64,000 nt of DNA from Gemmatimonadota bacterium (GTDB lineage: Bacteria; Latescibacterota; UBA2968; GCA-2709665): positions 124,001 through 188,000 of the forward strand of contig JAPPFJ010000008.1 in NCBI GenBank assembly GCA_028877215.1. The letters are read 5' to 3'. Both the position numbers and the translations under genes were made by a program. The notes under the pieces are model-generated. The model was not told the DNA's origin. It did no database searches and saw only the letters and a program-made list of their open reading frames with translations. Positions 29,634 through 64,000 of the stretch are shown here, one piece after another. Within the stretch, counting starts at the first letter, position 1, and each line of letters starts with the position of its first letter.

Positions 29634-30422
29634 ATGGATATGAATCTGAAGGGTAAAATCGCGCTTGTGACGGGCGGGAATCGCGGGATCGGTCTCGCAA
29701 CGGCGAAGGGCCTGGCGAAGGAGGGGTGTGACGTTGCGATCTGCGCCCGGCGGGAGGAGACGCTTGCGCAGGCGGCTGGAGAGATCGAAGCGCTCGGCGT
29801 CCGTGTCGCCGCCATACAGGCGGATGTGCAGAATCCGGATGACGCGGTCCGGTTTGTGGCGGAATCCGCCGCACGCCTTGGCGGGATCGATATTCTCATC
29901 AATAACGTGGGCGGCCGATCCGGCGACAGGTTGATGGATTCGACGGACGAGGATTGGGTGGAGACCTTCGACAAGAATGTGTTCCACGGCGTTCGGTTGA
30001 CCCGGCTGGTGGTCCCGCATATGCGGGCCCGCGGCGGGGGGGCCATCGTGTTTATTTCCTCCATCTCCGGATGGATTCCGCAATTGAGCGGCGCGGTGCA
30101 GTACGGCGCGTCAAAGGCCGCCCAGATCTTCATGGCCGAACCGATGGCGCTTGAGCTGGTGCACGACCGCATCCGGGTGAACGTGGTATCGCCGGGATCG
30201 ATTATTTTCGAGGGCGGCGGTTGGGCCGGGCTTCGTGATGAAAAGCCGGAGGTATTTGCCGCATACGAGCAGAACGGTTTCCCGATGGGGGGCCTGGGTA
30301 CGCCCGAAGACGTTGCGGACGTCGTCGTGTTTCTGGCTTCGGACCGGTCCCGCTGGGTGAACGGCGAAAACATCCGCGCAGACGGACTCGAGCAGCCTGT
30401 TCCGGCGGTGCGTCCGTGGTGA
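29634..30422 (+). CDS. Short-chain dehydrogenase/reductase (SDR)
   Basis: A 262-aa classical SDR. It has the cofactor motif TGGNRGIG at 14-21, the NNVGG segment, the catalytic serine in FISSISGW, and YGASK as the Tyr-x-x-x-Lys pair. PGSI begins the substrate loop. An acidic or basic residue after strand 2 (CARREE) suggests NADP(H). The start is the ATG at 29634 with GGAGG six bases upstream. Close relatives are annotated as 3-oxoacyl-ACP reductase or glucose dehydrogenase; the substrate is unknown. It overlaps or abuts the downstream endonuclease III gene. Confidence 0.9.
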   Translation: MDMNLKGKIALVTGGNRGIGLATAKGLAKEGCDVAICARREETLAQAAGEIEALGVRVAAIQADVQNPDDAVRFVAESAARLGGIDILINNVGGRSGDRLMDSTDEDWVETFDKNVFHGVRLTRLVVPHMRARGGGAIVFISSISGWIPQLSGAVQYGASKAAQIFMAEPMALELVHDRIRVNVVSPGSIIFEGGGWAGLRDEKPEVFAAYEQNGFPMGGLGTPEDVADVVVFLASDRSRWVNGENIRADGLEQPVPAVRPW

Positions 30423-30448
30423 GCGCAGGCCAAACGAGGAATCCGGGG

Positions 30449-31108
30449 ATGATGGGGCCTGACGAAAATCAGGACGCGCGGCGGTCGCGGACCCGCACGA
30501 TCATAAAGAAGCTGAAGCGTGACTATCCCGACGCCGAGTGTTCGCTTACGTACGAAAACCCGCTCCAACTCCTGATTGCGACGATGCTCTCAGCGCAATG
30601 TACGGACGAACGGGTCAATATGGTGACGCCGGTTCTCTTCGAGCGCTATCCCACGGCCGTGGACTATGCCGACGCTCCGTTGGATGAACTGGAGGGCCTG
30701 ATCCGTTCGACGGGGTTCTTTCGCAACAAGGCACGCAACATCCAGGGCTGCTGCCAGGCGCTTGTGGACAACCACGGCGGAGAGGTGCCGCGATCCATGG
30801 ATGAACTGGTGGCGCTGGACGGCGTTGGAAGAAAGACCGCCAACGTCGTTCTGGGCAATGCGTTCGGGATTGCCGAAGGCGTTGTGGTGGATACGCATGT
30901 TCGCCGGATTTCCAATCGCCTGGGCCTGACCCGTAGGCAGGACCCGGTCAAAATCGAACAGGACCTGATCGGTCTCGTGCCGAAAAGGGATTGGGTGGAC
31001 CTGCCGCATCTGTTCATCCATCATGGGCGCGCGATATGCAGCGCCAGGGCGCCTGACTGCGATGCGTGCGGCGTGGGCGCGTTGTGCCCGTCGCACGGAC
31101 GCGCATGA
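30449..31108 (+). CDS. nth: Endonuclease III (DNA glycosylase/AP lyase)
   Basis: A 219-aa HhH-GPD base-excision-repair enzyme removing oxidised pyrimidines. The HhH motif LDGVGRKTAN carries the catalytic lysine (K129) and VDTHVRR the catalytic aspartate (D148). A [4Fe-4S] loop is formed by C197-x6-C204-x2-C207-x5-C213. The start at ATG 30449 has a CGAGG 10 bases upstream; a GTG at 30416 would overlap the SDR gene by 7 bp. Assignment is secure. A second, atypical HhH-GPD glycosylase lies 2.3 kb downstream. Confidence 0.95.
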   Translation: MMGPDENQDARRSRTRTIIKKLKRDYPDAECSLTYENPLQLLIATMLSAQCTDERVNMVTPVLFERYPTAVDYADAPLDELEGLIRSTGFFRNKARNIQGCCQALVDNHGGEVPRSMDELVALDGVGRKTANVVLGNAFGIAEGVVVDTHVRRISNRLGLTRRQDPVKIEQDLIGLVPKRDWVDLPHLFIHHGRAICSARAPDCDACGVGALCPSHGRA

Positions 31109-31979: not shown

Positions 31980-32741
31980 TCAACCCCTCACTGCGTCGAC
32001 CATGCTGCGGCAGCCGTGCAGGTAGATGCCCGTATCAACCGACAGGGCGATGTAACGCACGCCGGCGTCGATCCAGCGATTGGCTGCTTCGGGGCTGTCC
32101 GCAAAGGTGCCCACGGTGAGGCCGGCCTTATTGATCTCAACGGTGGCCTCACGCATCCGGTCCACCACCCTGGGATCGCTCACCTGGCCCGGGATGCCGA
32201 GGGACTGGGATAGGTCGTACGGACCCAGGAAGACGACGTCCAGGCCGGGCACGGCGATGATGGCATCCAGGTTTTCCAGGCCCTCCACCCCTTCCACGTG
32301 GATGAGGACCATGGATTCCCGGTTGAGCCGCTCGAAGATCTGCCCGCCTTCCGCGAAGTACCGGGCCGCGCGGGTGTAGGGCGAGACACCCCGCATCCCC
32401 AGCGGCGCGTACTTTGCCGCCTCGACGAGGGTCTCGGCGTCGGAGCGTGTGCGTATCTGCGGTACCTGGACGCCCTCCGGGCCGATGTCCAGCGCCCGGA
32501 GCACCTGGGGCGGGTCGTTTTCCCTGACGCGCACAATCGGGGAAATACCCGCGCCCTTTGCCACGCGGCAGAGGTTCTCGGTGGTCTCGATATCCAGCGG
32601 ACCGTGTTCGGTATCCAGGACAACGAAGTCAAACCCCGCGTACGCGGCGATCTCGATGAGCGCGCCGGACGCGAGATTGACGAACGGACCCAGGACGACC
32701 TCACCGGCCTTCAGTTTGGTTTTCAGGCTGGTTTCAGACAT
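31980..32741 (-). CDS. HpcH/HpaI-family aldolase (2-keto-3-deoxy sugar acid type)
   Basis: A 253-aa class II pyruvate aldolase. The catalytic histidine is H46 in LDTEHGPLD. RVREND gives the conserved arginine that polarises pyruvate. The metal ligands are E150 (IHVEGVEG) and D176 (LGPYDLS). Relatives split 4-hydroxy-2-oxo-heptanedioate, 2-keto-3-deoxy-rhamnonate or similar acids to pyruvate and an aldehyde. This fits as the step after an enolase-superfamily dehydratase, several of which are encoded in this window, though not in this operon. The preferred substrate is not determinable. Confidence 0.92.
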   Translation of the reverse strand: MSETSLKTKLKAGEVVLGPFVNLASGALIEIAAYAGFDFVVLDTEHGPLDIETTENLCRVAKGAGISPIVRVRENDPPQVLRALDIGPEGVQVPQIRTRSDAETLVEAAKYAPLGMRGVSPYTRAARYFAEGGQIFERLNRESMVLIHVEGVEGLENLDAIIAVPGLDVVFLGPYDLSQSLGIPGQVSDPRVVDRMREATVEINKAGLTVGTFADSPEAANRWIDAGVRYIALSVDTGIYLHGCRSMVDAVRG

Positions 32742-32844
32742 GGTGAATCTCCACGACAGGGGTCGGATCTATGGAGCGGTTTAATCGTTCAATATATGCC
32801 GTGGCCGAAAACGTGTAAAGCGGAAAGCCCCGGCGCCGGACCGC

Positions 32845-32873
32845 TTGACATTCGAATGCCGCATCCGTATATA
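32845..32873 (+). promoter_or_regulatory. Near-consensus sigma70 promoter of an orphan small gene
   Basis: TTGACA (32845-32850), a 17-bp spacer, then TATATA (32868-32873). It is the strongest promoter match in the window. It reads away from the aldolase gene into a 42-codon frame. Confidence 0.75.
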
Positions 32874-32908
32874 TGTGATATAAGATCAGCAACGGGGAGG
32901 AGGTTGGA

Positions 32909-33037
32909 ATGAACACCGATTTGCGGGAATTCGCGTTGCGCCTTAAAGTTATCGAAATCCTGAAGCGGTACACCTGGGTACGACATCAGTTGAGGGTCAT
33001 TCAGTTGTGGAAGAAGCTCTACATCCACCCGAATTGA
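32909..33037 (+). CDS. Orphan 42-aa basic small protein
   Basis: An ATG at 32909, preceded by GGGGAGGAGG (a very strong ribosome site), opens a 42-codon frame. The product is basic and probably one or two amphipathic helices (LREFALRLKVIEILKRY, then RVIQLWKKLYIHPN). A near-consensus promoter lies about 36 bp upstream and a stable terminator begins 25 bp after the stop, so it is a complete one-gene transcription unit. No hydrophobic membrane span is long enough for certainty. I know no family for it; a regulatory RNA with a short frame is the alternative. Confidence 0.6.
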   Translation: MNTDLREFALRLKVIEILKRYTWVRHQLRVIQLWKKLYIHPN

Positions 33038-33061
33038 CGCGTGCTGACTGGCTGCTTAAGA

Positions 33062-33094
33062 GGCGCTCGGGCGGGGACGGTCCGGGCGCCTTTC
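33062..33094 (+). terminator. Rho-independent terminator of the 42-aa gene
   Basis: GGCGCTCGGGC (33062-33072) pairs with GTCCGGGCGCC (33080-33090), with two G-U pairs, around a 7-nt loop. TTTCTGTTGT follows. Confidence 0.75.
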
Positions 33095-33169: not shown

Positions 33170-33366
33170 TAGCCTCAATGCGAAAAAAACAGCAATGCGG
33201 CGACGCGATAAAACCCTCCGAATCGGGGCGCTATCGACGTAAAGAAGGACGTTTTTTCCCTTCACGTCCGGTGACTTGGTTTATCCTGGTAATCCGCCTT
33301 TTAATCGCCTATTTTAACAATCACATATTCGAATTAACGTCCCCGAAGACTTACGAATCAAGGTTA
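33170..33366 (+). repeat. 197-bp dispersed repeat, copy B
   Basis: The copy begins TAGCCTCAATGCG and ends CGAATCAAGGTTA, which are imperfect inverted repeats of each other (9 of 13 positions). TTA lies at both borders. It abuts the start region of the next gene, where its terminal AAGGTTAGG could act as a ribosome site. Confidence 0.88.
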
Positions 33367-33370
33367 GGTC

Positions 33371-34084
33371 TTGATCGACATCCGTCGATTCGTTAGATTT
33401 CCGCCCGATATGCCCTCCGGACAGAACAGGATTCGCGCGGTCTTCGACCGGTTGATGGATGCTTTCGGACCCCAGGGATGGTGGCCGGCTGAAACTCCGT
33501 TCGAAACGATGGTTGGGGCCATATTGACACAGAATACGGCCTGGACGAACGTGGAACGGGCGATGGGAGCGCTGACAGCCGCGGGGGCCCTTGAAGCCCG
33601 TACGATGCTGGAAATGCCCGACGCCGAATTGGAAACCCTCATCCGTTCCGCGGGCACCTTCCGCGTAAAGGCCAGGCGGCTGAAGGCATTCCTGGCGTAC
33701 TACGTTGTCAGGTACGATGCGGACGTTTCACGGATGAGGGATGTCCCGACCGGGCGTCTGCGCAAGGAACTGCTGTCGGTAAACGGAATCGGACCCGAAA
33801 CCGCGGACTGCATCCTGCTGTATGCGCTCGAAAGGCCGAGTTTCGTGGTGGATGCATATACGCGGCGGGTCTTCGGGCGTCTGGGACTGCTGGACGCGAG
33901 ACTCGATTATCACGACATGCAGCGCAGGTTTCAGGCCGCGCTGCCGGCGAACGCGGCGGTCTATAACGAGTATCACGCCTTGATCGTAGCGCTGGGCAAG
34001 CGCGTCTGCCTGCCCGCGCCAAGGTGCGGAGCGTGCGTGCTGAACACGGTATGCGAGACAGGAGGACAGGATGACCCGGTTTGA
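33371..34084 (+). CDS. HhH-GPD DNA glycosylase (endonuclease III-related, lyase lysine absent)
   Basis: A 237-aa protein of the endonuclease III superfamily. The HhH motif is VNGIGPETADC, where the Nth catalytic lysine is replaced by glutamate. The general aspartate is kept (VDAYTRR, D161). Four cysteines in CLPAPRCGACVLNTVC suit a [4Fe-4S] loop. It is therefore expected to be a monofunctional glycosylase, perhaps for alkylated bases. The start may be TTG 33371, right after repeat copy B, or ATG 33410, which matches family length better. It overlaps the next gene by 14 bp and begins a plus-strand operon with a TIM barrel, dusB and larB. Confidence 0.87.
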   Translation: MIDIRRFVRFPPDMPSGQNRIRAVFDRLMDAFGPQGWWPAETPFETMVGAILTQNTAWTNVERAMGALTAAGALEARTMLEMPDAELETLIRSAGTFRVKARRLKAFLAYYVVRYDADVSRMRDVPTGRLRKELLSVNGIGPETADCILLYALERPSFVVDAYTRRVFGRLGLLDARLDYHDMQRRFQAALPANAAVYNEYHALIVALGKRVCLPAPRCGACVLNTVCETGGQDDPV

Positions 34085-61912: not shown

Positions 61913-61987
61913 TGGTGACCCCGAGGGGAGTCGAACCCCCGTTGCCGGGTTGAAAACCCGGTGTCCTAACCACTGAACGACGGGGTC
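61913..61987 (-). tRNA. tRNA-Glu (anticodon TTC)
   Basis: On the minus strand the acceptor GACCCCG pairs with CGGGGTC and is followed by A and an encoded CCA. The D-arm is GTTCAGTGGTTAGGAC, the anticodon stem CCGGG/CCCGG has the loop TTTTCAA (anticodon TTC), and the T-arm contains GGTTCGACTCC. A TTGACA promoter lies just upstream. Confidence 0.96.
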
Positions 61988-62221: not shown

Positions 62222-62298
62222 GGGCGATTAGCTCAGATGGTTAGAGCGCTGGTTTCACATACCAGAGGTCACTGGTTCGAGTCCAGTATCGCCCACCA
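62222..62298 (+). tRNA. tRNA-Val (anticodon CAC)
   Basis: The acceptor GGGCGAT pairs with ATCGCCC, then A and an encoded CCA. The D-arm is AGCTCAGATGGTTAGAGC, the anticodon stem CTGGT/ACCAG has the loop TTCACAT (anticodon CAC), and the T-arm is CTGGTTCGAGTCCAG. Confidence 0.96.
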
Positions 62299-63740: not shown

Positions 63741-64000
63741 AGGCAAGCGGGCCGGATGGCCGCGCCCCTGCCAGTCCGCTGGTATGGGCGAGGAAAGTCC
63801 GAGCTCCACAGGGCAGGATGCTGGGTAACTCCCAGGCGGGGCAACCCGAAGGAAAGTGCCACAGAGAACAGACCGCCAGCGGGCGAAACCACGGTTTCGT
63901 TGCGGGCAAGGGTGAAACGGCGGGGTAAGAGCCCACCGCGCTCCCGGAGACGGGAGCGGCACGGTAAACCCCATCCGGAGCAAGGCCAAATAGGAGCGGA
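63741..64000 (+). ncRNA. rnpB: RNase P RNA (class A), 5' part
   Basis: The bacterial RNase P RNA core is recognisable: GAGGAAAGTCCGAGCTCC, ACAGGGCAGGATGCTGGGTAACTCCCAGG as the P3-P4 region, GAAAGTGCCACAGAGAACAGACCGCC, and AAGGGTGAAACGGCGGGGTAAGAGCCCACCGC. The 3' part, including the end of P4 and P1, runs past the window. The exact 5' end is approximate. An ORF overlapping it is not real. Confidence 0.95.

Follow-up and report, generated by a model that had tools for sequence, protein, structure and literature searches.

A conserved single-copy 42-residue protein of one Latescibacterota class, tentatively assigned to a core cellular complex

Background

In some lineages, the ribosome contains small, helical proteins that had been left unannotated, namely bS22, bL37 and bL38, as described in PMC10618245, which also gives a lysine and arginine content of 61% for bS22 of Borrelia. 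Proteins with the DUF1127 domain are often shorter than 50 amino acids, arginine-rich and conserved, and they act by binding a larger protein, PhoR, according to PMC12501420. In the GMSC catalogue of small open reading frames (ORFs), CDD domains were assigned to only 6.1% of the families (PMC11364881).

For the family reported here, and for small proteins of the Latescibacterota, our literature search, which was not exhaustive, returned no paper. To our knowledge, this phylum has few or no cultured members, and the present analysis adds to it a clean, near-universal small-protein family. The gene was noticed within a window of 64,000 nucleotides (the whole stretch of DNA analysed) by reading promoter, ribosome site and terminator from the raw sequence, an approach that can find such small genes.

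The transcription unit

The promoter, ribosome site, 42-codon frame and hairpin named in the earlier note were all read at positions 32845-33093 of the window. The unit and its immediate neighbours are arranged as follows (stand-alone loci are defined below):

31980-32741, minus strand: HpcH/HpaI aldolase gene, divergent neighbour outside the unit (Pfam PF03328)
32791-32819, minus strand: promoter-like site TTTACA-17-TATATT of the aldolase gene, outside the unit (promoter scan, 10 of 12 positions)
32845-32850, plus strand: -35 box TTGACA, read directly; all 11 stand-alone loci have TTGAC
32868-32873, plus strand: -10 box TATATA after a 17-nt spacer, read directly; all 11 stand-alone loci have exactly this spacing
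32894-32903, plus strand: ribosome binding site GGGGAGGAGG, read directly; AGGAGG-like sites occur in relatives
32909-33037, plus strand: 42-codon ORF MNTDLREFALRLKVIEILKRYTWVRHQLRVIQLWKKLYIHPN, stop codon included; under purifying selection and kept by 44 of the 47 genomes in the class
32909 and 33035-33037, plus strand: start codon ATG and stop codon TGA, the ends of the 42-codon ORF
33061-33093, plus strand: GC-rich hairpin with a short T tract, a presumed intrinsic terminator (fold, covarying pairs, kept in relatives)
33371-34084, plus strand: HhH-GPD (endonuclease III-like) gene, downstream neighbour outside the unit (Pfam PF00730)

The unit had been called an orphan. This holds insofar as it is monocistronic in the window; on its other side it diverges from the aldolase gene, which has a promoter-like site of its own. 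Two HhH-GPD (endonuclease III-like) genes flank the unit within 3 kb, at 30416-31108 and 33371-34084. The three sister species lack about 200 bases that lie in the window between terminator and second HhH-GPD gene (33171-33370); their downstream gene starts near +266 as compared with +462 in the window, which looks like a small insertion. Towards its end, the window carries tRNA genes at 61916-61987 (minus strand) and 62222-62295 (plus strand) and a class A RNase P RNA gene that begins at 63744 (plus strand) and runs off the end.

A near-consensus promoter, TTGACA-17-TATATA, is present as the earlier note had claimed, and was read directly. To call it the best in the window was an overstatement: by counting it scores 10 of 12, the same as eight other sites, and a perfect TTGACA is found in three of those eight too, so that it is among the best rather than the single best. 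Because its -10 box lacks the consensus T at position 6, a standard scan of the window does not list it. Its conservation could be followed by dividing the loci into stand-alone ones (families f1 and f3 and genera g5-g8 of family f2) and others, a split made after the sequences had been seen: TTGAC-17-TA lies upstream of the gene in all 11 stand-alone loci, which represent eight genera, versus 0 of 19 other loci examined. Of 2000 shuffled versions of each upstream region, 0 to 22 contained the motif. The length of 17 nt is constant in the stand-alone loci, and the bases of the spacer for the most part differ from genus to genus. As judged from this motif, the gene has its own conserved, predicted sigma-70-type promoter in f1, f3 and g5-g8 of f2. 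In f4 and in most of genus g4 of f2 it sits close behind other genes and does not stand alone. An AGGAGG-like site precedes the start codon in most relatives outside f4, and promoter and ribosome site together make an abundant product plausible.

At the 3' end, the hairpin arms lie within 33061-33091 and are followed by TTTCTGTTGT, a weak T tail. The description as a stable terminator is borne out in part: the hairpin is strong and is kept in relatives with compensatory changes, but the T tract is poor and the folding energy is not unusual for the composition (z -1.29; an equally good fold arose in 20 of 200 shuffles). The poor T tract goes along with the lack of an entry for this terminator in the standard scan of the window. 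RNAalifold on ten loci gave support mainly for the terminator helix, again with compensatory changes, and this was the sole good conserved RNA helix. No convincing terminator was seen 3' of the gene in f4.

A protein-coding gene of one class

The 42-codon ORF is almost certainly a real protein-coding gene, as judged from its pattern of substitutions. Among four species of the genus (six pairs), pS was 0.552 and pN 0.020 for the ORF, compared with 0.307 and 0.021 for the neighbouring aldolase gene as a control; across nine genomes of genus g4 of f2, the summed values were 0.261 and 0.091. Eleven loci were examined frame by frame, and the ORF was never interrupted, whereas each of the other five frames contained stops in several loci. 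No internal stop occurred in the matched frame of 44 members. Synonymous changes were thus in excess, and frame and stop position were kept; loss of the frame, the outcome that would have spoken against the gene as proposed in the earlier note, was not seen when frame and synonymous-site conservation were checked.

A search profile built from 30 members matched once, and only once, in each of 44 of the 47 class genomes (E 1e-22 to 2e-8); in 17 genomes from other classes of the phylum it matched nothing. With the single sequence and E values up to 1, a match was obtained in 45 of 60 relatives, the weakest of these matches being unreliable. Outside the phylum (322 of the 386 genomes searched), there was no full-length match, and the five weak partial ones (E 0.003-0.009) are about the number expected by chance at that cut-off. 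Three genomes of the class have no copy, G013 (91% complete), G027 (75%) and G033 (73%), and a renewed search of these at E values up to 10 returned only fragments of 14 to 20 residues; their lack of a copy counts against the best explanation offered below.

A peptide-pattern scan of 84,980 species genomes gave 32 pattern matches, of which 16 were confirmed; we take all 16 to be members of the same class of Latescibacterota. Viral contigs yielded 48 pattern matches, none of them confirmed, and plasmids no match, and an origin as phage or plasmid gene was rejected on these grounds. Our best reading of this distribution is that the protein arose in one class of Latescibacterota or has been retained only there.

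For the window protein, no Pfam or NCBIfam family scored above its curated cut-off, and NCBIfam returned none over 30 members either. Over the same 30 members, the only Pfam family to appear was the Trp repressor (PF01371), below cut-off in three of them. This weak likeness concerns members of genus g14 in f4, which resemble profile positions 27-58 (E 0.014 and 0.0046); with scores of 15.9 and 17.4 below the 27-bit cut-off and about one third of the profile covered, this identity was rejected. In PHROGs, six families without a name came up, none with an E value better than 0.026. A profile search of the PDB (177635 sequences) returned no ribosomal chain and no solved structure, its two matches being chance ones at E 2.4 and 5.5. 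On these sequence comparisons, the family is near-universal and single-copy in the class, and no Pfam or NCBIfam family covers the 42-residue protein.

Changing neighbours

In f1 and in g5-g8 of f2, the usual order is genes for PolX, endonuclease III, a DksA/TraR protein and the antisense aldolase, next the gene for the 42-residue protein, and after it dusB and an AIR-carboxylase-like gene, each of these neighbours occurring in part of the genomes. In most of g4 of f2, the gene lies behind a sulfatase gene. In f4, a gene for a large barrel-type outer-membrane protein is found upstream, and lipoprotein-like and TPR genes downstream. Next to the gene, f1, f2 and f4 showed no ribosomal genes; in f3 alone, obgE follows closely downstream. 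Neighbours were named by Pfam in the window and by reading the sequences elsewhere. The ORF maps consist of the longest non-overlapping frames, in which some genes are mis-called, those for the DksA-like and HhH-GPD proteins in the window genome among them, so the neighbourhoods are approximate.

As the neighbours change between families and the gene persists, its role would be independent of any one partner gene. The presence of one copy in nearly every genome despite these changes suggests that the product most likely acts in trans.

A basic helix with a fixed C-terminus

The earlier note had predicted a basic and helical product, and both attributes agree with what was computed here: the isoelectric points of 30 members range from 9.6 to 12 and their net charges from +3 to +11, and both AlphaFold2 models consist of one predicted helix. 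In the window protein, 9 of 42 residues are lysine or arginine. Its helix is modelled over residues 2-38 (mean pLDDT 89, pTM 0.51, 16 sequences) and that of an f4 member over residues 2-39 (mean pLDDT 85.2, pTM 0.50, 15 sequences). Since AlphaFold readily gives a single helix for 15 or 16 short sequences, these models say little on tertiary structure.

Three residues never vary among the 44 members: L10, W34 and the asparagine at the C-terminus, directly before the stop codon (33032-33034 in the window). Almost as constant are E16 (43 of 44), K13 (42 of 44, arginine in the other two), P41 (41 of 44), and R11 and L12 (40 of 44 each). Fitted lengths are 39-43 residues; in genus g13 of f4, the start codons are uncertain and the proteins were fitted to 42 residues, and in two of its genomes (G037 and G046) there is no start codon at the fitted start point.

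Conservation, measured as entropy over residues 5-22, is not concentrated on any one face of the helix (3100 of 5000 shuffles gave as large a value), and in none of 30 members did residues 4-37 have a significant hydrophobic moment (48 to 494 of 500 shuffles as large). By eye, there is no signal peptide and no long hydrophobic stretch. All-round conservation together with the lack of a significant hydrophobic moment is as expected of a helix enclosed by partners, not of one lying on a membrane.

Candidate functions

We propose that this small basic protein would consist of one 37-residue helix and a short C-terminal tail, [IV]-x-P-N-COOH, and would work in trans as a structural component of some core complex, for which an RNA-protein particle, for instance the ribosome, is the likeliest kind. 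Partners would surround the N-terminal half of the protein (ALRLKVIEIL) completely, with anchoring contacts made by the invariant tryptophan and the C-terminal asparagine. That it is a class-specific, independently expressed small protein with its helix buried in a core cellular complex is a tentative reading, to which we give somewhat less than an even chance. We put the ribosome first among the candidates because lineage-specific proteins that are small, basic, helical and unannotated have been found there (PMC10618245); taken as the specific complex, it is nevertheless unlikely. What stands against it is the lack of a relation to known ribosomal proteins, the absence of ribosomal neighbours except obgE in f3, and a moderate basicity. 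We regard with the same reserve the complete proposal of a previously undescribed subunit that would define the class and belong to a core machine, the ribosome being the most probable one, whose single basic helix would be threaded through the particle and whose free C-terminal Pro-Asn would be recognised; this last element is suggested because the final residue is invariant in all members. If the protein were a true component of the ribosome or of RNA polymerase, a lineage-specific part would be newly added to such a core machine, and its strict C-terminal asparagine would call for an explanation.

Nearly as likely as a core-complex subunit, and taken by itself a possible but rather doubtful assignment, is a small regulatory protein that binds a larger one, such as a sensor kinase, RNA polymerase or a nuclease, in the manner of DUF1127 or MgrB. 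Size, basic charge, an own promoter and the lack of a recognisable enzymatic motif are consistent with this, as is the binding of PhoR by DUF1127 proteins (reported in PMC12501420). In the window, there is a DksA/TraR-type gene some 1 kb upstream of the unit, and a cluster of such genes (c29) has members nearby in five other genomes from five genera; this cluster is not found near the gene in f4 or in g4 of f2. A near-universal single copy and conservation all round the helix fit a structural subunit better, and DUF1127 matched none of the 30 members in Pfam.

A peripheral membrane or envelope protein, with an amphipathic helix lying on the membrane, is improbable. A basic helix with tryptophan and tyrosine would suit such a role, and in f4 the gene is placed between those for the barrel-type outer-membrane protein and the lipoprotein-like proteins; envelope neighbours are confined to f4, however, the helix has no significant amphipathicity in any of 30 members, and no signal peptide or long hydrophobic stretch is visible by eye.

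Still less probable is a non-coding or dual-function RNA in which the ORF is incidental or secondary, the second option having been raised in the earlier note and finding no support here. Promoter and terminator bracket about 200 nt, and the 221-nt transcript, taken as a whole, gives a somewhat better fold than its shuffles (z -2.13, 6 of 200), a value that we do not count as evidence of RNA function. Against this stand the strong coding constraint, the uninterrupted frame in 11 loci and covariation that is found mainly in the terminator, the only good conserved helix. The synonymous sites of the ORF vary more than those of the aldolase gene, and such fast synonymous change disfavours a second, RNA-level role of the coding part. 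Rfam gave no match at gathering score near the unit, the best sub-threshold one lying over the terminator (20.7 bits versus 50, E 0.1).

Least probable of all is a leader peptide attenuating downstream genes, as a short ORF followed by a terminator could suggest, with a same-strand gene whose start lies 228-462 nt beyond the ATG in the mapped f1 loci (at 33371 in the window), because the protein is conserved residue by residue despite different downstream genes, and also in f4 without a convincing terminator.

Comparison with known systems

Several identities were considered for the 42-residue protein. Replacement of ribosomal protein bS21 was rejected, PF01165 being present in 58 of 64 genomes of the phylum, including that of the window. 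The RNA polymerase omega subunit is apparently strongly divergent in the class: nearly all genomes of the class give either a PF01192 match below cut-off or none, and 14 of 14 control genomes match. By reading, an omega-like ORF was found before coaBC in the two f1 and six g4 loci opened (L096-L103), mostly directly behind gmk, and a replacement of omega was set aside for these f1 and g4 genomes.

Microcin C-type peptides have a C-terminal asparagine and an adjacent gene for the adenylating enzyme MccB. An asparagine ends the protein in 44 of 44 members here, and a ThiF/MccB-like gene was found among none of the seven window neighbours scanned, other genomes having been inspected partly by eye.

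The conserved residues of DUF1127, which we take to be PF06568, differ from those of the 42-residue protein. The gene described here is furthermore single-copy, in distinction to DUF1127, and 30 members gave no Pfam match to that family at E values up to 1. Its likeness to DUF1127 proteins such as YjiS, which are often under 50 residues, lies in small size, richness in arginine and conservation (PMC12501420). With the uncharacterised small-protein families of the GMSC catalogue, it has in common that it is conserved, small and without an assigned function.

In comparison with bS22, bL37 and bL38, the 42-residue protein is without a profile-detectable sequence relation to PDB chains, and it is less basic than bS22. 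It resembles these ribosomal proteins, as described in PMC10618245, in being very small, basic, in part a single helix, easily left unannotated and restricted to a lineage.
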